A stretch of 64,000 nt of DNA, from NCBI GenBank assembly GCA_910575815.1, contig CAJTFN010000004.1, positions 186,001-250,000 of the forward strand. The letters are read 5' to 3'. The position numbers and the translations under genes are program-made. The stretch's first letter is position 1; each line of letters starts with the position of its first letter. This DNA comes from Oscillospiraceae bacterium. GTDB lineage: Bacteria; Bacillota; Clostridia; Oscillospirales; Oscillospiraceae. Shown here in pieces: positions 325 to 9,138 of the stretch. The notes below the pieces were generated by a model, which made no database searches, had not been told where the DNA came from, and saw only the letters and a list, made by a program, of their open reading frames with translations.

Positions 325-1715
325 TCAGTCCTCTTTTCGGGCCTCAAGCTGTTTCAGGATGTCGTGGAAGGTGCCGCGGTCAATTTTATAGAAAAGGAAG
401 ACGATGCCGCAGCCAACAGACAGGATTCCTGGAATCAGGGTGAAAAAGTTGTTGATGGTATGGAGGACAGCGGGGGTTTGCTGGACGTTTGCCTGAAAGT
501 GCAGTGCGGCCAGAACGGCGGCTACGCCGGAGCTGCCGATGGCAATCCCGAATTTATTGCCCAAGGAAATAAAGGCGGAGAGGAAACCGTCATTTCTCAC
601 ACCGGTTTTCAGTTCACCGTATTCCACTGTATCAGGAATGACGCTGTAAATGCCGGAGGCCAGAATGCCCTCAAAAAATTTGGAGATGGCGCAGAGAAGG
701 TAGAAGGGGAGCGGCGTAGTGACAGGCGAGGTGAACCGCATGAGAATCATGGCCGCTCCGGCGCCAAGGCAGCCGTAGGCGGTAACCCGGCCCTTGTTCC
801 CGTCCTTCTGATACCAGGCTTTGAACAGGTAACACCCAGCCACTAGGGGTATGAGCCCAACCAGATTGTAAACGGACATGAGGCCCTCGTCTCCCTGCAC
901 GTACTTGAAGTAATAGCGTACATGGATCCCCGTCCGTGGATGAAGAAACCCCATAGCAACTGGCCGGCAAAGGCGATCAAAAAGGGTTTGTTGGCAAACA
1001 TGGATTTCAGCTGCAAGCCCAGAGGATATTTGTGTTTCCGAGGTGGCGCGACCACCTCCCGTTGGGTGGAGAACACCACTACCTGGCACAGGACGAAAAC
1101 GGTAACAAAGATACCAGCGGTGAGGCGATAGCCCATGGCGGCGTCTCCGCCGCCCAAAGAGGAGACCATGGGAATGACGATGATGCCGATTCCGGCGATG
1201 GAGATGTTAGCCAGGGTGATACGCATGGTGGAGAGTTTGGCCCGTTCATCGGTATTCTGGGTCAGGACGCTGGTCATTGCACTGTAGGGGATATTGACGC
1301 CGGTGTAGCAGAAAACCAACAGGCCGTAGGTGAGATACATGTAAATGATTTTCCCTGAGGTATTCCAGTCCGGATGGGCCCAGAAGGTCAGTAAGGCCAG
1401 AATGGCCGCCGGGAAAGACATAAACAGCACCCAGGGACGGTAACGGCCCCAGGGGGTCTTGGTGCGGTCCGCCCAGCCGCCAATGAGAGGGTCGTTGATG
1501 GCATCCCAGAACCGGGCGATGAGCATCAGCAGGGAAACGGCTGCCATGGGGATACCGAACACGTCGGTATAAAAGATCATCAAATAGGAGCCCACGAAGG
1601 TCCAGATGAAATTGTTGCCGAAGTCGCCCAGCCCGAAGGCGGCGGATTTCCAAAAGGAAATTTTGACGTCGGTACTAGCAGTTCCCTGGAGCTCCATGTT
1701 GGTTTGTTCGTTCAT
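325..1715 (-). pseudogene. GPH-family sugar:cation symporter, one frameshift
   Basis: A 12-TM MFS transporter of the glycoside-pentoside-hexuronide family, recognised by the N-terminal segment FGLGDFGNNFIW, the DPLIGGWADRTKT loop with GRYRPW, and GFFIHGR near residue 265. The reading frame breaks at about 920: upstream frame 843-1715 carries the N-terminal half, frame 325-1089 the rest. One extra G in the CGGGGATCC run would restore HGRGIHVRYYFKY, and the total length (1391 nt) is one base short of a multiple of three. The start at 1715 follows AGGAGAAGG. It is either a real inactivating or phase-variable frameshift or a homopolymer sequencing error. It was probably the last gene of the transketolase/dehydrogenase operon before the element at 1.7-8.1 kb inserted; substrate probably a sugar or polyol (inference). 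Confidence 0.8.
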
Positions 1716-1855
1716 TCAGCCTTCTCCTCGTATCGTAAGATTTGCCGGGGGCGAGGGATGATTTGCCGCATCAAAAGGTGATGATTCCCACACATTCAAT
1801 CCCAATTTTTAATTTTTCCTTTAATACCAACACTTTGCGGCTTCTCATTTTCTGT

Positions 1856-1911
1856 TTGTTCCGCAAATTGTTCCGCAGAATTTGAAGAAAAATCGTAGAC
1901 GTGCGGAACAA
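1856..1911. repeat. Left-end integrase arm-type repeats
   Basis: Two TTGTTCCGCA copies (1856-1865 and 1868-1877, 12 bp apart) and an inverted copy TGCGGAACAA (1902-1911). The same sequence occurs three times at the right end (8005-8048). Tn916/lambda-type integrases bind short repeats like these near both ends; that role is inferred from position and copy number. The neighbouring bases 1716-1855 hold only the transporter leader. Confidence 0.6.
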
Positions 1912-1950
1912 GCAAATTTTCGCCCTCTGTTTAACAGCGTTATATCTCTA

Positions 1951-2163
1951 TTATTTCTTTTTATCTAATGCCTTTTGTATGCTTTTTTCTAGTTTATCTG
2001 CTATTTCCTTGCCCTATTTATCAATATTATCTTCACTTTTTCTAAAATCTGTTTGAAAATTCACATCTTCATGCTATTTTCTATATAAATAGCATGATAA
2101 ACACTCTCTTTCACTAGGATTTTTAGCAATATAAGCTAGAATGTGTGCAAAATCATGTAACAT
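1951..2163 (-). pseudogene. Small decayed gene with two in-frame amber codons
   Basis: An AAAGGAG site (complement of 2171-2178) precedes ATG at 2163 by 8 nt. The frame reads 29 residues beginning MLHDFAHILAYIAKNPSER, then TAG (2074-2076). It stays open for 19 codons to a second TAG (2014-2016), then 20 more codons ending in a lysine-rich tail (KALDKKK) and TAA at 1951. The continued codon pattern suggests a 70-residue protein interrupted by two point mutations, each explicable as CAG to TAG. The first 29 residues alone could also be a real micropeptide. Function unknown. Confidence 0.5.
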
Positions 2164-2255
2164 TGTTACATCTCCTTTCAATTTTTAGGGCTTTTAATAC
2201 CATTGTAGCCGCATAGCCCCATTTAAGCGGCCTATTTCCTTTTATTCAAGTATTC

Positions 2256-2333
2256 CTGTCGCTAAACTGTTATGGGCTGACCTAGTATATTATATTATTA
2301 TTACTAGGCTTGCCCGTAACAGTTTAGCGACAG
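2256..2333. repeat. Long inverted repeat with AT-rich loop
   Basis: Arms CTGTCGCTAAACTGTTA (2256-2272) and its exact complement (2317-2333). They are followed inward by a partly matched 9-bp stretch and CTAGTA/TACTAG (2282-2287, 2302-2307) around an all-AT loop. It lies just beyond the 3' end of the 488-aa gene. It lacks a T-tract, so it is not a standard terminator. Candidates are a replication origin, a transfer origin or a recombination site of the element. Confidence 0.7.
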
Positions 2334-2360
2334 TAGAAACACGGAAAACGGCGGCGGCGG

Positions 2361-3827
2361 TTAGAAGTCTTTTAGCATAATATAGTTACCACGCAAAACG
2401 CCCTTTTGCAATATCCCATATTCTACAAGGGTATTTATTGCCTTGCCGTTATTATTCTTATATCCTCTATTCCTTAACTGCTGCGTTGTTATCTTATCAC
2501 CAGCTTTCAAACCTGTTAGCCGTTCAGCAGCTATTGTATATACTTGCTCAATAGCCTGTTGCGCTCTTGCGGCTGACTTTGTATCTACAATCATTATATC
2601 TTTTTTAAAATCAACTGTGAATTGATAAACTTCACTTTGATAATCTGGTATTGATATAGTGCTAAAGCAGTTATTAACAATGCTCGAAATATCTATTGAT
2701 TTATCACTTTTCATTTTTCTACATAAAATATCAATACAACTGCTTATCACTTCCTTTATTGGTCTTCCTATATAAGTATCAGGAAGTGCGATACGATTTC
2801 CTTTCTGACAATATAATAGCATTAAGCAATTTTTATAAATTATTTCTCTTCCTTTTATATCAGGTATATTTTCTCTAGATTGATAACGACAAAAAATTCC
2901 ATATAGTTCTACTTTTACTCCTATTATCCAATTATACAAACTCATATCAATACCAGAAATAAAAGCCTTGTCTTTTTCTGTTCTGTATTTATAACAAAAA
3001 AAATCTTCTATTGCTCCATCTACTTTTCCTGATATATCTAAATCAGCACCAAAAGCAACCATTTTTTCTAATCCATCATCCCAATTAAAGCGGCGGTAAT
3101 ATTTCTGTATTGTTTTATTCTCATAGTATTTAGAAAGAAATCTAAACAAATCTTCTTTTTCTTCTTCATCAATAATCGGCAATCCAAAATGATACGCCAA
3201 AATATCATACTTCATTTTTATACGCTGTGTAGGCCCTATCTTTAGAAGATTATCTATTGTATCTGGAAAGTATACAACGCTCTTATTTATTCGTTTATCT
3301 GGATACATAGTAATTAGAAAATCATCAAACTTATATTCTTTATTATCATAAAAAACTAAAGATACTTCTTTATCTTCTACTATCTTAATACTTAATTCTA
3401 TATGTTTTCCTCTAAACATAGGATTTTCTATTAAATATTTATATCTTGCAAGTTCTTTAATCTTTTCTGCTGGATGTTTAAGACCGCAAATATTATGTTC
3501 TATTGAAATTTTATATAATTCAATATAAATACAAAATTCAAGTATTGATATATATTTTCTATATTCTTTTTTGATACCACAATCATCACAATATCTATAA
3601 AAATTATCTATATGACAATCTTTAAAAAGTTTTATTACGGTATCATCACCATATCCATTTTGTTCATTATATATTCTATCAAGTGATAAAATGAACTCAA
3701 TTAATTCATATAATAATTTCCGCTTAGAATTATTAGTTTCTTTAATTGCAATTTCAATACACTTATATATAACATCTCTATCATCTCCATTTAATATTGT
3801 TAGTGGTTCTTGTGGGTTAAAGTCCAT
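2361..3827 (-). CDS. 488-aa element protein, candidate replication initiator
   Basis: I do not recognise a named family. The protein is acidic to neutral, rich in Lys, Ile, Tyr and Asp as expected from its very AT-rich codons, and has no signal peptide or clear membrane segment. A CDDC motif lies near residue 80. The last 60 residues (from about AAERLTGLKAGDKITTQQL to YIMLKDF) look like a winged-helix domain: a helix-turn-helix-like stretch (TQQLRNRGYKNNNGKAINTLVEYG) then a beta-wing. The start at 3827 follows AAAGGAG at good spacing. That site lies inside an interlaced repeat structure (3827-3940) that could control translation, and a long inverted repeat lies just downstream (2256-2333). 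This resembles control of plasmid replication proteins, so a Rep function is proposed but not shown. A defence or regulatory role is equally open. Confidence 0.75.
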   Translation of the reverse strand: MDFNPQEPLTILNGDDRDVIYKCIEIAIKETNNSKRKLLYELIEFILSLDRIYNEQNGYGDDTVIKLFKDCHIDNFYRYCDDCGIKKEYRKYISILEFCIYIELYKISIEHNICGLKHPAEKIKELARYKYLIENPMFRGKHIELSIKIVEDKEVSLVFYDNKEYKFDDFLITMYPDKRINKSVVYFPDTIDNLLKIGPTQRIKMKYDILAYHFGLPIIDEEEKEDLFRFLSKYYENKTIQKYYRRFNWDDGLEKMVAFGADLDISGKVDGAIEDFFCYKYRTEKDKAFISGIDMSLYNWIIGVKVELYGIFCRYQSRENIPDIKGREIIYKNCLMLLYCQKGNRIALPDTYIGRPIKEVISSCIDILCRKMKSDKSIDISSIVNNCFSTISIPDYQSEVYQFTVDFKKDIMIVDTKSAARAQQAIEQVYTIAAERLTGLKAGDKITTQQLRNRGYKNNNGKAINTLVEYGILQKGVLRGNYIMLKDF

Positions 3828-3940
3828 TTGTGGGTTACTCCTTTCTTATAAGATTAAACAAGTAGCAAGATAGCGGAAACAAAATGGAGTAACCCACAAA
3901 CCCCAATTATTTCCCATTTCCTTGCTACTTGTCTAATCTC
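3827..3940 (-). promoter_or_regulatory. Interlaced inverted repeats over the ribosome binding site
   Basis: Two inverted repeats are interleaved in the order A-B-A'-B'. A is 3827-3841 and A' is 3886-3900: 15 bp, perfect (GGAGTAACCCACAAA in A'). B is 3851-3869 and B' is 3921-3939: 19 bp, one mismatch. In the minus-strand RNA that mismatch becomes a G-U pair, which favours an RNA role on that strand. The A arm contains the GGAG of the 488-aa gene and reaches its start codon, so A:A' pairing would hide the ribosome binding site. B:B' pairing competes with it, or the two form a pseudoknot. Confidence 0.75.
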
Positions 3941-4293
3941 ACAAAAAAGAAGTTCCTTTACTACTCCTGCTCTATTATTCTTTCTTCATTTTCTGATTAT
4001 ATTATACTACAAAAATTTTTTTATTGCAACCTGCCGCAGTAGTCACCTAATACGCCTAGCCGCCATTTTAAGCCCTTGTAATGGTCTTTTCTATTGCTCC
4101 TATGGTAATAACCATACCTAGCCCATAAACGGCCCCTATCGGCTCCCTAGGCCCTAGGGGGGATAGTTACGGGAAAATACCCTTGCTCTCTGCTGGCCTA
4201 GGCTTTTTCGGCGGATTTCCCGACCGCAACCAAAACACGGCGGAAACGACCGCTTTCGGCGGCGGCGGTGGTCTGCTGGTATTCTCTACACAA
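3941..4293. other. Non-coding stretch with a GC-rich, CCTAGG-containing island
   Basis: No credible gene is seen. 3941-4030 is AT-rich leader. 4040-4290 becomes GC-rich, with two overlapping-style CCTAGG sites (4146-4151 and 4153-4158) and a GGCGGCGGCGGTGGTCTGCT tract near 4258-4277. A similar island lies at 6457-6725, sharing the CCTAGG sites and the GGCGGTGGTCT tract. Confidence 0.5.
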
Positions 4294-4331
4294 CAACGCA
4301 CAAGGACCGCTATAATGGCCCTTGTGCGTTG
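4294..4331 (-). terminator. Hairpin after the resolvase gene
   Basis: Perfect 12-bp arms CAACGCACAAGG (4294-4305) and CCTTGTGCGTTG (4320-4331) with a 14-nt loop, 7 bp after the resolvase stop. There is no strong U-tract, so it may protect the 3' end rather than terminate. Confidence 0.55.
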
Positions 4332-4338
4332 CTCTGTC

Positions 4339-4935
4339 TTATGCTCCCAGTAGCTTGTAAAATGTCGTGCGCTTTGTCCCTGTCAACTCCATTGCCTTTG
4401 TAGCGGTGATTTCCCCGGCTTTCCACTGGCCTATTACTTCTTCCCAGTTCGGCGGCTTTTGGGCTTTCGGTCTGCCTAACTCCACGCCCTTTACCTTTGC
4501 GGCGGCTATGCCCTCTGCCTGACGCTGTTTAATGCTGGCCCGTTCCTGTTCGGCTATCGTGCCTAATACCTCAATCAAGATATTGTTTACCATTTCAAAA
4601 ACCCACTCTTGCCCCTCTGGTAATTCCATCATTGTTGTGGGGAGGTCTAGCACCCTTAGCCGGATACCCTCATTCTTGAAATACTCTAACTCATTCTTAA
4701 TATCTCCTTTGTTGCGGCTCAATCGGTCAAGGGATTTAATAATCAGAGTATCGCCACGTCGCAACAAGCCGCTCTTTAATAGCTGGTAGCCTTTTCTATC
4801 TAGGTCTTTTCCGCTCTCCTTGTCTACAATGATATTTCTTTCTTCTATTCCCTGTTCGGATAGTGCTATATATTGCCTATCAAGGTTTTGCTCCTTTGTG
4901 CTTACTCTTGCGTATCCGAATACCTTGCTATCCAT
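4339..4935 (-). CDS. Serine resolvase/invertase family recombinase
   Basis: A 198-aa small serine recombinase. The N-terminal catalytic domain (about 1-140) has YARVSTKEQNLDRQ with the nucleophilic serine, then IVDKESGKDLDRKGYQLL, LIIKSLDRLSRN and the long linking helix EQERASIKQRQAEGI. A C-terminal helix-turn-helix follows (about 150-198, ending TKRTTFYKLLG). Length and order fit Tn3-type resolvases and plasmid multimer-resolution enzymes. The start at 4935 follows GGAGCGGT. A cluster of TTCGTAAA/TTTACGAA and ATTTGCG/CGCAAAT repeats just upstream (4983-5101) is a plausible res site. Its likely job is to resolve dimers of the element or invert a segment; no invertible flanks are visible. Confidence 0.9.
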   Translation of the reverse strand: MDSKVFGYARVSTKEQNLDRQYIALSEQGIEERNIIVDKESGKDLDRKGYQLLKSGLLRRGDTLIIKSLDRLSRNKGDIKNELEYFKNEGIRLRVLDLPTTMMELPEGQEWVFEMVNNILIEVLGTIAEQERASIKQRQAEGIAAAKVKGVELGRPKAQKPPNWEEVIGQWKAGEITATKAMELTGTKRTTFYKLLGA

Positions 4936-4982
4936 GCTTACCGCTCCTTTGGTTTGTTGATGGTATTAGTATAGCAAAAGTG

Positions 4983-5101
4983 TTCGTAAATGTCAAGCGT
5001 TATTTGCGAATATCCGCAAATTGTTTTGCGGCTTTTACGAATATTAAAACGGCTTGTTTTCACTAGGTTTTCTAGTGTTCGTATTTGTATACTTAAACGA
5101 A
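4983..5101. repeat. res-like cluster of inverted repeats upstream of the resolvase
   Basis: Outer arms TTCGTAAA (4983-4990) and TTTACGAA (5034-5041) enclose inner arms ATTTGCG (5002-5008) and CGCAAAT (5015-5021). A third looser pair (TTCGT 5078-5082, ACGAA 5097-5101) follows. Resolvases bind two or three such dyads next to their own gene, where binding also represses it. The role is inferred. Confidence 0.5.
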
Positions 5102-5120
5102 TAGCCGCTTTTTTCGGCTA
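5102..5120 (-). terminator. Small hairpin at the end of the Xre gene
   Basis: TAGCCG and CGGCTA arms around a 7-nt T-rich loop overlap the stop codon of the Xre gene. The stem is short, so this is a weak candidate. Confidence 0.35.
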
Positions 5121-5465
5121 CTCCTTTATAAATGGTACGCTTTCCTTTAGTATGTTCAATACAACCGCTAACTGATTATCAGTACAGTTTTCCAATAGTT
5201 CATTTATTTCTTGTAAGTAAATATTGTTTTCTTTTGTTCTCTTTTCTACTGTGCAAGGTATTGAAATTATATCATTTGCAGTAATACCAAAGTATTCTAT
5301 CAGGTCTACTAATTTATCTAGGCTAAATCTCCTTTCTCCACGTTCGCACTGTCCTAAATAGTTAGTTTCTGTTTCTAGTACCTCTGCTAATTTTTCTAGT
5401 GTTAGTCCTTTCAGCTTTCTATATTTTCTAATATTCTTTCCTATCTCAAAAGATAATTCGTCCAT
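5118..5465 (-). CDS. Xre-family transcriptional regulator
   Basis: A 115-aa protein with an N-terminal Cro/CI-type helix-turn-helix at about residues 9-65 (IGKNIRKYRKLKGLTLEKLAEVLE, then LGQCERGERRFSLDKLVDL). A short C-terminal helical region (about 85-115) probably dimerises. It is the likely repressor of the element. It is transcribed away from the 97-aa gene at 5648, and an 11-bp-arm palindrome (5537-5559) in the shared intergenic region is the best operator candidate. The start at 5465 is preceded by AGGCGG. It ends in TAG, which argues against amber recoding in this element. Confidence 0.85.
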   Translation of the reverse strand: MDELSFEIGKNIRKYRKLKGLTLEKLAEVLETETNYLGQCERGERRFSLDKLVDLIEYFGITANDIISIPCTVEKRTKENNIYLQEINELLENCTDNQLAVVLNILKESVPFIKE

Positions 5466-5536
5466 TAAATCACCGCCTTTCCTCTTGTTATTCTACAAGG
5501 TAGGCAGTCAATAGGCGAGTTACGCAATGCTTTTCA

Positions 5537-5591
5537 TTCCATTGCAATTTGCAATGGAAATCTTGACATAGCAAATCGCTTGTGTTATCAT
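5537..5591 (+). promoter_or_regulatory. Palindromic operator and sigma-A promoter
   Basis: TTCCATTGCAA (5537-5547) and its exact complement (5549-5559) form a near-perfect palindrome. Next to it are TTGACA (5563-5568), 17 bp, and TATCAT (5586-5591), pointing toward the 97-aa gene. Inferred binding site of the Xre protein. Confidence 0.65.
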
Positions 5592-5647
5592 TGCAGTAGG
5601 CAATTATTCGGCCTAAAATAAAACTAAAAGAAGGGAGGGAAAAGACA

Positions 5648-5941
5648 ATGGGATTTGTAATGCCTTTAGTATTAGGGCTTTTGGGATACATAGTCATAGC
5701 ATTTTTTGTTAGAGCGCCTGGTAGGAGTCTTCAACAAAAGTTTATAAAACTAGGAAATTTTGCTGGCATGACCTATGAGGAAATAGCAAAAAATGTAGGC
5801 CCTTGTAATTCTGAATCGCCCCAAGTAACCAAAGATGGTGAAACTATTATCGTTAGACAATGGATTAGCACAGGATATCATATTTCTCTTATATTCAAAG
5901 ATGGTATTTGTATAGCAAAGAATCATGAATCAAGTGTTTAG
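5648..5941 (+). CDS. Small membrane protein of unknown function
   Basis: 97 residues. Residues 4-21 (VMPLVLGLLGYIVIAFFV) form one hydrophobic segment. A soluble domain follows (about 25-97) with TYEEIAKNVGPCNS and a beta-rich tail (ETIIVRQWISTGYHISLIF). A strong GGGAGGG site lies 7 nt before the ATG. It has its own promoter (5563-5591) and terminator (5947-5991), so it is a single-gene unit opposite the Xre repressor. I do not recognise the family. Possible roles include superinfection exclusion or another host-altering cargo function; this is speculation. Confidence 0.65.
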   Translation: MGFVMPLVLGLLGYIVIAFFVRAPGRSLQQKFIKLGNFAGMTYEEIAKNVGPCNSESPQVTKDGETIIVRQWISTGYHISLIFKDGICIAKNHESSV

Positions 5942-5946
5942 AAACG

Positions 5947-5991
5947 AATACAAGGCGGCTAGTATAAACACAACTAGCCGCCTTGTATTTT
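5947..5991 (+). terminator. Intrinsic terminator
   Basis: Perfect 17-bp arms (AATACAAGGCGGCTAGT at 5947-5963, complement at 5973-5989) with a 9-nt loop and T run, directly after the 97-aa gene. Confidence 0.9.
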
Positions 5992-5996
5992 ACATA

Positions 5997-6025
5997 TTGA
6001 CAAATAGAATACTAGCCTATATAAT
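5997..6025 (+). promoter_or_regulatory. Full-consensus sigma-A promoter
   Basis: TTGACA (5997-6002), 17-bp spacer, TATAAT (6020-6025): an exact match to the consensus at both boxes, reading into the 111-aa gene after about 55 nt. It predicts strong expression. Confidence 0.9.
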
Positions 6026-6083
6026 ACAAGACAATAAAGCAATAATCAAAACAACAAATAATACTTGAAAGGGGATTTACAAA

Positions 6084-6419
6084 ATGGCTGGTAAAAAATC
6101 TGCTACTGAAAAGAAAGTTTACACAATCAGCGGGGAAGAAATAACAGACTTAAAGCAAATTACACTTCCAATAATCAAACGTCATGTTATGGAACTTGGA
6201 AAGAAAGACGCTAAATGGCTCATGGATTTTATGAAAACAGAGGTTGAGAAAAAGGACAAGGACGGAAAGAAAGTTATGCGTGTTCCGACCTATATTGAAG
6301 TTAGGAACGAATTTGCCCGTAAATACTTCCCCGACCTCGCACCCAAAGGGACAACAAGAAAAGCAAGCATGATGAAAGATACCCTTGCAGAGTTAGAAGC
6401 GTTCCTAGCAGAAGAATAA
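6084..6419 (+). CDS. 111-aa lysine-rich protein of unknown function
   Basis: A soluble, highly charged protein. The N-terminal 15 residues are basic (MAGKKSATEKK). A helical middle (ITLPIIKRHVMELGKKDAKWLMDFMKTEVEKKDK) and a C-terminal part (YIEVRNEFARKYFPDLAPKG) follow. It has AAAGGGG before the ATG, a consensus promoter and its own terminator (6427-6459), so it is probably the most highly expressed gene of the element. It may bind DNA, for example as a directionality or accessory factor beside the integrase, but no family is recognised. Confidence 0.7.
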   Translation: MAGKKSATEKKVYTISGEEITDLKQITLPIIKRHVMELGKKDAKWLMDFMKTEVEKKDKDGKKVMRVPTYIEVRNEFARKYFPDLAPKGTTRKASMMKDTLAELEAFLAEE

Positions 6420-6426
6420 TACAATC

Positions 6427-6459
6427 AAGCGGGAGCGGCGCAAGCCGCCCCCGCTTTCC
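6427..6459 (+). terminator. Intrinsic terminator after the 111-aa gene
   Basis: AAGCGGGAGCGGC (6427-6439) pairs with GCCGCCCCCGCTT (6444-6456), one mismatch, 4-nt loop, then a short T run. Confidence 0.8.
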
Positions 6460-6725
6460 TTATGCGCCCAGCGGAGCGGGCGCAAGGGCCGACGAGCCGC
6501 CGAAGGCGGCGAAGTCGGCCCCATCGAGCGGGAGCGGGACTTACTCGGCGGCGGTAGCTGCTGGCGGCGGTGGTCTTGTTCGGCGGCTGATAGCATAGAA
6601 CGCCCTACAAGGCCCATAGAAGCCCCTAGGAGCGTTTCTGGCCCCTAGGAAATACCCAACACTACCCACGCCGCAAAAGCCGCCTAGCGGCCCTTACAAG
6701 CGGTCTAGCGGCGGCGGTAGCAAAA
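6457..6725. other. GC-rich non-coding island
   Basis: No gene is seen. It holds a strong hairpin (GGGCCGAC 6486-6493 with GTCGGCCC 6514-6521, inner AGCCGCC/GGCGGC), GGCGGCGG tracts and CCTAGG sites at 6625-6630 and 6644-6649. It resembles the island at 4040-4290. The base composition is opposite to that of the element's genes. Confidence 0.5.
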
Positions 6726-6757
6726 AAGAGGGGGAGCGGCTAGGCCGTTCCCCCTTG
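6726..6757 (-). terminator. Terminator of the integrase gene
   Basis: AGGGGGAGCGGC and GCCGTTCCCCCTT arms with a 3-nt loop, followed on the minus strand by a run ending in TTTTTTG. It lies 22 bp after the integrase stop. Confidence 0.8.
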
Positions 6758-6778
6758 TTCCGTATTGTAATCGCTTTC

Positions 6779-7981
6779 TTACTCTCCCTTATCGCTTTCT
6801 TGTCTATCTTCCCAATAGGAAGTATTTTCCTTGAATGTGTCTGTTAGCTTAACACTTGCAAGGCTTAAAGCGTCTGCATTAGCGTCCCCATAGGTATCCA
6901 ATGTCATTGCTCTGCTTGCGTGTCCCATCATAAGGGCTAAACTTGCAATATCCATTCCAGCACGAATACCAACAGTAGCAAAATTGTGTCTTAACCCATG
7001 CGGCACTATCTTTTTTCCGTAGGCATCAACTAGATTATTTCTATCTACAAATTCACTAAATCGGCTGTTATACTGTTGTGGGCGCATAAATTGTTCTTCT
7101 TCACCTATAACAAACCAATTATCTTGTGGGGTTATAAGTGCTTTTCGCTCCTTTAGTGCCTGTTCTAATTGCGGCAACATTGGAAAAGTTCTAGTAGAAC
7201 TCTTATTTTTAGGATTTTTAGTGTAATCTCCTAATCCTTTTCCCTCACTTACTCCTACTGCCGACCTAATCCGTATAGTGTGCCTATTAAAGTCTATATC
7301 ATTCCATCTTAACCCGCAAATTTCCCCACGCCTTAACCCGGCGTAAAAGGCTAACAGTATTCCTACATACATAGGGTCTTGCGGCTCAAAGTCCAAATAG
7401 ACAGCTTCTAAAACATTGTCCATCTGTTCATTTGTCAAGTGTGTTACTTTTACATCTCCCTTTTTCGGCATTTTTACGCCTTTGAATGGGTCTTTTAACA
7501 ATTCACCGTTATTATAGAAGTAGTTATATACTTTTTTCAGTCTTGCATAGGTTGTATGTATTGTGTTTTGCGATAGTCCTAAATTATATAGCTTTGTTAG
7601 CCAACTGTTAATAACGGTATTATCAACCGTTGCAAATATGTAATCTCCTAAATACGGCTTTATATACTTGTTATATGAGTGTATGCTATTGCTATAAGTG
7701 CTTCTTTCTATTTCTCCTGTATCTAGCTGGTGCTTTAGATATTCCATAAAGGTTTTATCTACTGTACTAGCCTTTCCAGCATTTGGCATTAAATCGGCTT
7801 CTGCATTAAGAGCGTCTAACCACTCTTTTGCTATCCGTTGCGCTTCTCTCTTGCCCTTTGCGTCTGGCAACATTTTACTAAGTTCTTTCCACTTCCCTTG
7901 TGTATCTTTGTATTTTGCCCTTGCTTGCCACGGTTTGCCCTTGCGGTCTAATTGCCGAACACTAACAGCGGTGTACTTCAT
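6779..7981 (-). CDS. int: Tyrosine-type site-specific integrase
   Basis: 400 residues. The N-terminal arm-binding part (about 1-60, GKPWQARAKYKDTQGKWKELSK) is of the Tn916/phage Int type. A core-binding SAM-like domain follows (about 70-170, ERSTYSNSIHSYNKYIKPYLGDY). The catalytic domain (about 180-390) has all key residues: Arg in GLRRGEICGLRW, His-x-x-Arg in HGLRHNFATVGI, His in LMMGHAS and the nucleophile Tyr in TLDTYGDAN. The start at 7981 follows AGGAGGT. It lies at the right end of the element and reads inward, next to the repeats at 8005-8048. It carries out integration and excision; target choice seems to be the 3' end of the zinc dehydrogenase gene. Confidence 0.95.
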   Translation of the reverse strand: MKYTAVSVRQLDRKGKPWQARAKYKDTQGKWKELSKMLPDAKGKREAQRIAKEWLDALNAEADLMPNAGKASTVDKTFMEYLKHQLDTGEIERSTYSNSIHSYNKYIKPYLGDYIFATVDNTVINSWLTKLYNLGLSQNTIHTTYARLKKVYNYFYNNGELLKDPFKGVKMPKKGDVKVTHLTNEQMDNVLEAVYLDFEPQDPMYVGILLAFYAGLRRGEICGLRWNDIDFNRHTIRIRSAVGVSEGKGLGDYTKNPKNKSSTRTFPMLPQLEQALKERKALITPQDNWFVIGEEEQFMRPQQYNSRFSEFVDRNNLVDAYGKKIVPHGLRHNFATVGIRAGMDIASLALMMGHASRAMTLDTYGDANADALSLASVKLTDTFKENTSYWEDRQESDKGE

Positions 7982-8004
7982 CTGTCATACCTCCTAGGCT
8001 TGAA

Positions 8005-8048
8005 TTGTTCCGCATTTCATGCCCTGATTGTACCGCATATGTTCCGCA
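8005..8048. repeat. Right-end integrase arm-type repeats
   Basis: TTGTTCCGCA (8005-8014), TTGTACCGCA (8028-8037) and ATGTTCCGCA (8039-8048) match the three copies at the left end (1856-1911). They sit between the integrase gene and the host gene. Confidence 0.65.
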
Positions 8049-8058
8049 AAGTCAATGC

Positions 8059-9138
8059 TCATTCTGAAAATGGCAAACCCGCAAACCCTTGATTTTCAAC
8101 GGTTTGCGGGTCTTGATTTTTGCTAGTTTCTGAAAATACTATTCCCTTGAGATAGCCGGCGGGATTGGTGTCCAGCAGCCGAAAGCCTTCGCCGGTGTTC
8201 TCGAAGGGAATGCGGTGAGTGACCAGTTCGTCAGTAGGGAAGACACCCTTGGCATAGGCGTCCACGCCGATGCTCAGAATGTGCATGTATTCGTTTGTAT
8301 AATAAGGGTGGGTCACGTGAATGATGGGAGAGCGGTACATCATGTTGTAGGCCATCTCCTCTGTCCAGACCTCATTTTTGGCGTAGACCGAGGGGGCCAA
8401 AATTCTGCCCTGTCCGGCGATCTTGGCGATTGAAAGGGCCGTTTGCATGCCCCGCAAGCTGCCGGTAATCTCCACCACACAGTCAAACATCCGGCCATGG
8501 GTGAGTTCAAAAGAGGCATCCTCAATGTCCACAGCGTTGGGGTTGAGAGTCACGGTAGCGCCGTAGCGCTTTGCCAGTTCCAAGCGCTGCTCATCTAGGT
8601 CGATGGCCACAAGCTCACCAAGGGCCCGATTTTTCAGGCCTGAGAGGATCATCAGCCCCATAAAGCCGCAGCCTATCACGGCGATCCGGTCTCCCATCTT
8701 CGGCTCCGCCGCCCGTACGATATTGGAAAGACACATCATCGGTTCCCCCAGGCAGGTTTCGATAGGCTTGGAGAGACTTGGAATTTTCATCATTTGGGCG
8801 TTGGCGGCCACGTTGTAATCTGCGATGCAGGCGCTCAACACGCCGGTGGCATAGTCCCCCGGCTTAAACTGGGTCACGTTTTTGCCCACATCCGCCACGA
8901 CGCATACCGGCTCATGCCCGATGCCCATTGGGAAAGACGGGTTTTTGATCATGGCGTCGTAACCGTGCTTGTTTCCAAAACCCATGGCGCTGGTTCCATG
9001 GTAGGCGGGAATGTCGGAATGGCATAGACCCACGCTGATGGTTTTATACAGGACCTCATCTTCCCTCAAAGGCGGAATCTCCTCTTCGATCAGCTCAAAA
9101 CGTTCCGGCGCGATGAGCATGGCGCGTGTTCGTTTCAT
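8059..9138 (-). CDS. Zinc-dependent medium-chain alcohol/polyol dehydrogenase, tail altered by the element
   Basis: A 359-aa MDR-family NAD(P)-dependent oxidoreductase. Catalytic zinc ligands are in GLCHSDIPAYHG and GIGHEPVC. The Rossmann site is IAVIGCGFMGLMIL (about 153-166) with the acidic residue in VAIDLDEQRL. The structural four-cysteine zinc loop is not evident. It lies 22 bp after the transketolase C-subunit and is the third gene of a sigma-54-controlled operon, so it probably oxidises a sugar alcohol or reduces a keto-sugar. The last 24 residues (from SETSKNQDPQ) have no family counterpart I know and come from DNA with an 11-bp inverted repeat (8077-8111). They probably derive from the inserted element, which thus replaced the natural stop. 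Confidence 0.9.
   Translation of the reverse strand: MKRTRAMLIAPERFELIEEEIPPLREDEVLYKTISVGLCHSDIPAYHGTSAMGFGNKHGYDAMIKNPSFPMGIGHEPVCVVADVGKNVTQFKPGDYATGVLSACIADYNVAANAQMMKIPSLSKPIETCLGEPMMCLSNIVRAAEPKMGDRIAVIGCGFMGLMILSGLKNRALGELVAIDLDEQRLELAKRYGATVTLNPNAVDIEDASFELTHGRMFDCVVEITGSLRGMQTALSIAKIAGQGRILAPSVYAKNEVWTEEMAYNMMYRSPIIHVTHPYYTNEYMHILSIGVDAYAKGVFPTDELVTHRIPFENTGEGFRLLDTNPAGYLKGIVFSETSKNQDPQTVENQGFAGLPFSE
8077..8111. repeat. Inverted repeat at the element/host junction
   Basis: ACCCGCAAACC (8077-8087) and GGTTTGCGGGT (8101-8111) with a 13-nt loop lie inside the extended 3' end of the dehydrogenase gene. A tyrosine-recombinase core site or a terminator could look like this; the core-site role is a guess. 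Confidence 0.5.

Follow-up and report, generated by a model that had tools for sequence, protein, structure and literature searches.

The window, a stretch of 64,000 nucleotides covering positions 186001-250000 of a contig in a 4.56-Mb Oscillospiraceae genome, carries an apparent small integrated element of approximately 6 kb that spans roughly positions 1785 to 8060. Its left end was taken as the point where identity to a related locus, L002 (contig CAOJPS010000256.1, uncultured Eubacteriaceae bacterium), ceases, and its right end was guessed from the genes present and from TGTTCCGCA repeats close to either end. Repeats of this type lie at 1857-1878 and 8003-8050 and may serve as integrase arm sites. 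Along with the gene for a 488-aa protein, whose leader is the subject of this analysis, the element encodes a tyrosine integrase, a serine recombinase, and an Xre-type protein; two further short ORFs have no convincing family match, and no packaging or capsid-interference genes were recognized in it. A 21-nt inverted repeat (86%) at 4288-4337, directly downstream of the serine recombinase gene, is possibly a terminator. Additionally, a sugar-transporter-like gene at 325-1715 on the minus strand appears to be divided between the overlapping frames 325-1089 and 843-1715, as though by a frameshift.

Family searches with the 488-aa product returned no family above the cut-off. In its relatives, the shared central and C-terminal part is fused to or lies beside primase-like sequence: a weak PriCT_2 match was obtained in L055 (E 0.02), and the ORF adjoining the shared part in L058 matches DNA primase families. 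From this setting, we infer that the 488-aa protein is a probable replication protein. Its predicted structure, built from a two-row alignment, had a mean pLDDT of 38.9 and was left unused. Searching with the protein itself yielded matches in 8 of 250 family genomes, its own genome counted, and an alignment of the shared part located 14 places in 13 of 400 family genomes. At the order level, the same alignment matched 7 of 394 genomes (three already known and four weak new ones), and within three genera, 3 of 20, 1 of 10, and 2 of 11 genomes gave matches, none of them new. Neither the 488-aa protein nor its relatives were found in plasmids, phages, or IMG/VR. The features of the leader and its surroundings are listed in the table.

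Table. Features of the leader region and neighboring sequences, in window coordinates
Feature	Position	Strand	Remarks
Small ORF, 70 codons	1951..2163	minus	two in-frame TAG codons (2076-2074 and 2016-2014), read with TAG = Gln; both TAG codons common to L002
Long near-perfect hairpin	2254..2335	minus	separates the small ORF from the 488-aa gene; may be a terminator, origin, or recombination site; present in L002 as well; Rfam match at chance level
488-aa gene	2361..3827	minus	central and C-terminal part common to primase-linked genes of related elements
Third partial A' copy	3810..3819	minus	AACCCACA (TAACCCACAA); just inside the 488-aa gene
A'	3827..3841	minus	from the Shine-Dalgarno sequence to the first base of the start codon
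B'	3837..3869	minus	3' arm of the long helix; ends in GGAGT; core 3851-3869
Shine-Dalgarno sequence (SD)	3838..3844	minus	AAAGGAG; 17 nt 5' of ATG; predicted fully paired with the far 5' arm
A	3886..3900	minus	loop segment complementary to the SD-start region
B	3921..3953	minus	5' arm of the 33-bp helix; core 3921-3939
Leader promoter	4001..4029	minus	TTGCAA, 17-nt spacer with A7T5, TATAAT; phAss-1 type; scan score 10/12

The first-pass annotation had described two interleaved inverted repeats in front of the 488-aa gene, one of 15 bp and perfect, the other of 19 bp. Both are present, and on the minus strand their arms follow one another in the order B, A, B', A'. The perfect 15-bp repeat is formed by A and A' (TTTGTGGGTTACTCC and GGAGTAACCCACAAA); as had been claimed, one of its arms covers GGAG and the region up to the start, its last base being the A of ATG. 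B and B' form the 19-bp repeat, whose sole mismatch becomes a G-U pair in the minus-strand RNA, again as annotated. This repeat is real, but it is only the core of a longer structure, an unbroken helix of 33 pairs between ACTTCTTTTTTGTGAGATTAGACAAGTAGCAAG and CTTGCTACTTGTTTAATCTTATAAGAAAGGAGT with 28 Watson-Crick and 5 G-U pairs. Since B' runs to GGAGT, B' and A' overlap on these bases, and both helices cover the SD. All five non-Watson-Crick positions of the window helix are G-U in the mRNA strand, as are all four (of 25 positions) in the related leader L039. Furthermore, the third A' copy is retained in L002, in which the neighboring codons are different.

Fifteen leaders were examined, nine with a long hairpin (the window, L002, L039, which is the L013 locus, L054, L055, L057, L059, L061, and L078) and six short leaders with the same promoter type (L058, L062, L063, L056 via L017, L060, and L015); L064 and L065, which are gene fragments only, were left out of the set. 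For the nine long-hairpin leaders, B and B' were placed in one 24-column register, hand-set and guided by shared sequence such as ACAAG. The long helix covaries among these related leaders: 10 of the 24 columns differ in both arms yet still pair, 4 differ in one arm, and 9 are invariant, changes that represent differences among three sequence groups and not nine independent events, six of the nine leaders being closely related. Mispairs were A-C at column 13 and C-A at column 8, in the same six leaders, such that 12 of 216 cells were unpaired. The first-pass annotation had looked to homologues for compensatory changes, and B:B' provides them. Between the window and L002, all 90 arm positions are identical, against 62 of 77 positions elsewhere (p 4e-6). 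Rfam searches of positions 1700-8200 of the window and of seven loci yielded only matches below the gathering scores, with E up to 1.

The predicted folding energy of the 191-nt stretch of the window is -66.7 kcal/mol; shuffles average -37.9 (z -6.7), and none of 200 was as good. For the window leader, the antisense strand folds at -34.9 kcal/mol versus -63.7 for the sense strand, 29 kcal/mol worse; the antisense strand also folds far worse in L002 and L039, but not in the other six leaders. Energies of the nested B:B' fold and of A:A' alone were compared in five leaders (the window, L002, L055, L057, and L078; L039 and L054 were left out), and B:B' was preferred in all five: -66.7 versus -41.5 kcal/mol in the window, -65.7 versus -50.1 in L002, -69.2 versus -64.8 in L055, -71.5 versus -60.1 in L057, and -71.7 versus -53.9 in L078. 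The first-pass annotation had offered a long pseudoknot as an alternative. Summed before any penalty, its parts reach -73.0 in the window, against -66.7 for the nested fold, and -75.0 in L002, -81.4 in L055, -82.1 in L057, and -82.9 in L078. These sums lie 6 to 12 kcal/mol below the nested fold, a gain that the customary pseudoknot penalty would about cancel.

The predicted pairing of the SD with the far 5' arm is 1.0 in the window and L002 and 0.78 in L039, and the earlier claim that the ribosome binding site of the 488-aa ORF is hidden agrees with this prediction. The corresponding values are 0.24-0.56 in the other six long leaders and 0 in four short leaders. With A:A' disregarded, the SD is predicted to be unpaired at 0.43-0.72 in those six versus 0.20-0.64 in the four short-leader relatives; since exposure in the six is not below that in the short leaders, B:B' alone would cover the SD no better there. 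We conclude from these models that a window-type leader would act as a lock, and that an L055-type leader would be a lock requiring A:A'. For the window, a balanced switch was discarded as the principal model, since A:A' alone is 25 kcal/mol weaker and the SD is hidden in both forms. Hence, of the RNA switch proposed by the first-pass annotation, the structured transcribed strand that hides the SD is supported, but balanced, mutually exclusive stems are not supported for the window. By the predicted energies, a switch is less improbable in L055, the difference there being 4.4 kcal/mol.

The loop of these hairpins is complementary to the start region. For each leader, the best duplex that the loop region forms with the 47 nt surrounding the start was compared with 500 dinucleotide shuffles. 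It was equaled by 1, 0, 0, 0, 0, 0, 0, and 5 of them in eight leaders, the loop region here including the innermost helix bases in the window and L002; in L078, it was equaled by 1 of 500. Control windows of the same gene scored as well in 0 of 83 cases each in the window, L002, and L039, and in 13 of 83 in L054, 1 of 83 in L055, 7 of 83 in L057, 4 of 83 in L059, 13 of 83 in L061, and 19 of 81 in L078. Loop pairing is clearly start-specific in only three of the nine leaders, namely, the window, L002, and L039. The sequence of A and A' depends on the group, with TTTGTGGGTTACTCC in the window, TTCCATGAT and TTCCTCC in L039, and CCATCTTGT and GCGCTTCC in L055. Uncompensated loss of pairing in homologues, which the first-pass annotation had named as evidence against its reading, gives a mixed picture: A:A' has two mismatches each in L054 and L061 and is partly gone in L078, and for B:B' the losses amount to the two unpaired columns in six leaders.

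A consensus scan of positions 3700-4100 listed four promoter-like sites against a shuffle mean of 1.6, which is weak by itself; all were on the minus strand, and no plus-strand (antisense) promoter was listed in this single scan. When the leader DNA was used as a query, matches elsewhere fell chiefly on the promoter part. The sole matching record for the promoter among 50,697 phage records was phAss-1 (OQ749652), a code-15 phage of 136 kb with three tRNA-Sup-CTA genes. A strict form of the promoter pattern has 19 copies in the 136 kb of phAss-1 (reversed control, 0), and a looser form has 26. In 400 host-family genomes, the strict pattern has 11 copies in 10 genomes (reversed control, 0), all preceding element-type genes. 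Downstream of eight copies lie relatives of the replication gene, and downstream of another lies the L078 gene, which begins with primase-like sequence. The remaining two copies are followed by the small ORF, which in L086 is intact when TAG is read as Gln and in L085 is degraded. Two IMG/VR contigs match a longer promoter form, each with a primase-like ORF. By these sequence matches, the elements and phAss-1 share a promoter type. The leader promoter is sigma-70-like in appearance, which was counted against dependence on a phage. For 17 of the 26 phAss-1 promoters, an SD-and-start match lies at most 30 nt from the assumed transcript start, so the phAss-1 leaders would be short. The longest stretch common to the window leader and phAss-1 is 15 nt, versus 12-14 nt in five simple shuffles. 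Regarding the A7T5-spacer promoter, the word "promoter" has no match in the accessible part of the text on phAss-1 (PMC10607447).

The primases provide a further link between the elements and this phage. For the L058 primase, phAss-1 was the best of 123 phage records, with 44.8% identity over 93%, the next among the matches listed being 28.2%. In alignments of at least 130 residues, with the phAss-1 primase outside the comparison, element primases share 43-54% identity with the primases found on the two IMG/VR contigs and are 49-54% identical among themselves. According to the phAss-1 report, a relative of its primase occurs in an Oscillospiraceae genome (section 2.5), and its hosts are predicted in Eubacteriales (PMC10607447). 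No report of satellites using a phage's alternative code was found among the open-licence papers listed.

Amber codons recur in the coding sequences of these elements. In-frame TAG occurs at 10 of 14 matched places, one of which also has TGA, and TAA occurs at none. In the aligned domain (12 rows; L062 unaligned), TAG falls on six columns, of which two are otherwise always Gln, two are partly Gln (5 of 11, and 2 of the rest), and two are without Gln; the otherwise invariant Gln columns carry TAG in L002, L059, and L039. The alignment suggests that TAG is placed at Gln positions. TAG is codon 4 of the main (replication or primase) gene in L054, L055, L057, L059, L061, and L078, and the window 488-aa gene is itself free of TAG. 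Outside the element in the window, 9 of 38 long frames, picked by length and some maybe spurious, end in TAG, so the host uses TAG as a stop. No CUA suppressor tRNA was detected in the window, in 14 loci, or, by pattern search, in 14 element genomes, although each pattern catches two of the three phAss-1 suppressor tRNAs, so some could escape. Four host candidates, one in each of four genomes, were rejected as tRNA-Arg UCU, and two further candidates were not tRNAs by ARAGORN.

We consider it probable that the leader acts in cis as an RNA lock, holding back the translation of a phage-wired, probable replication gene. The host polymerase, or a phage-altered one, would transcribe the leader from the phAss-1-type promoter. 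During transcription, B:B' would close, up to 33 bp, with its 3' arm taking the SD, and A in the loop would act as a second cover, pairing with A' as a pseudoknot or once the long helix opens. Since every predicted form of the window leader covers the SD, the default state would be OFF, and the leader would repress translation of the 488-aa protein. In many relatives, with or without the leader, an in-frame TAG would be a second brake, requiring an amber-suppressing Gln tRNA. Two brakes would be sensible if the sigma-70-like promoter leaks in the uninfected host. When a phage of that group enters, some phage-dependent event would open the leader. This arrangement suggests that the element is silent until such a code-15 phage arrives, the phage presumably being its trigger. 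More tentatively, the elements may be code-15 phage satellites with the genetic code itself as their lock, combining the helper's promoter with amber codons readable only by the helper's suppressor tRNA; the hairpin lock would be additional or alternative. A host in which TAG is a stop could not make the proteins, and infection by a recoded phage would turn the elements on.

Other readings of the leader have to be weighed. In IncI-alpha/IncB plasmids, a leader peptide acts such that translation of an upstream frame opens the structure, and in a true switch of this kind, a ribosome would translate a short upstream frame that crosses A and B', melting both helices and allowing the main gene to start. 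The window does contain such a frame, of 23 codons, from a loop ATG through A and B' to a TAA just 5' of the SD; L039 has a similar one, and in L055, L057, and L059 the loop frame continues into the main gene if TAG is read. However, L002 has AGG in place of the window ATG, and L078 has ATA and a shifted frame. With starts and frames unconserved, and a stop-free run of this length not unusual by chance, we regard the true switch as quite unlikely. An equally slim chance is given to the repeats acting as DNA, either as sites bound by the replication protein or by a different regulator, or as a single-strand origin hairpin. They do adjoin the probable replication gene, and three TTGTGGGTTA copies, direct and inverted, occur in the window and L002. 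A role as RNA is nevertheless favored by the G-U identity of every non-Watson-Crick position in the mRNA strand (5 in the window, 4 of 25 in L039), by the far poorer antisense folding, seen in the window, L002, and L039 but absent from the remaining six leaders, by the helix end falling on the SD, and by the constant place of A and A' while their sequence varies between groups.

It is also unlikely that these are decayed copies, their TAG codons being ordinary nonsense mutations and their leader a remnant. Decay would be in line with the failure to find a suppressor tRNA in the 14 element-bearing genomes, with the TGA at one matched place, and with the small ORF of L085, which has a TAA and has lost its frame. 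Past the first TAG of the small ORF, the window and L002 differ at only 3 of 40 codons, a low divergence that argues against decay, although two of the three differences are nonsynonymous. The skew of the stops (TAG at 10 of 14 matched places, TGA at one, TAA at none) and the TAG codons on invariant Gln columns of L002, L059, and L039 point away from random nonsense mutation, as does the small ORF of the window and L086, in which TAG and Gln codons are swapped reciprocally at matching positions. Moreover, the leader arms show no drift between the window and L002 (90 of 90 identical). The RNA lock remains our preferred reading. As an RNA, the leader is without a match at gathering score in Rfam for the stretches searched: the SD is predicted to be buried by a long hairpin, the loop is antisense to the start region, and the helix covaries in relatives. 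If the phage link is true, the element would offer a testable case of a small element using a phage's alternative genetic code as an activation signal, with a bearing on what TAG recoding does for, and to, the gut phages that use it.

In IncI-alpha/IncB plasmids, translation is activated by a pseudoknot, in a mechanism that also involves a leader peptide and an antisense RNA. The leader resembles that of the ColIb-P9 repZ gene of this group in that a structured leader precedes a probable replication gene, with the SD in a stem in the window, L002, and L039, and in that loop-to-downstream pairing is possible. The first-pass annotation had drawn this comparison, which holds as an analogy only. 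Unlike the activating pseudoknot, which forms upstream of the SD, the loop here pairs with the SD and start themselves; no leader frame is conserved, the loop ATG being missing in L002 and L078, and one scan of 3700-4100 listed no antisense promoter. As in riboswitches, RNA thermometers, and autoregulatory pseudoknots, a default-off hairpin would lie over the ribosome-binding site. SD-sequestering leaders generally differ from the present one, which has an unusually long helix of 33 pairs and an antisense copy of the start in its loop. The element is also comparable to phage-inducible chromosomal islands and phage satellites, being small and apparently integrated, with an integrase, a regulator, a probable replication gene, and phage-shared signals; unlike them, it has no recognized packaging or capsid-interference gene. 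To our knowledge, phage satellites are not known to be gated by the genetic code of their helper. Compared with phAss-1, a 136-kb phage with three tRNA-Sup-CTA genes and probably mostly short leaders (17 of 26 promoters), the element measures only about 6 kb, and no such tRNA was found in it; the two are alike in promoter type, in TAG apparently read as Gln, and in a related primase.
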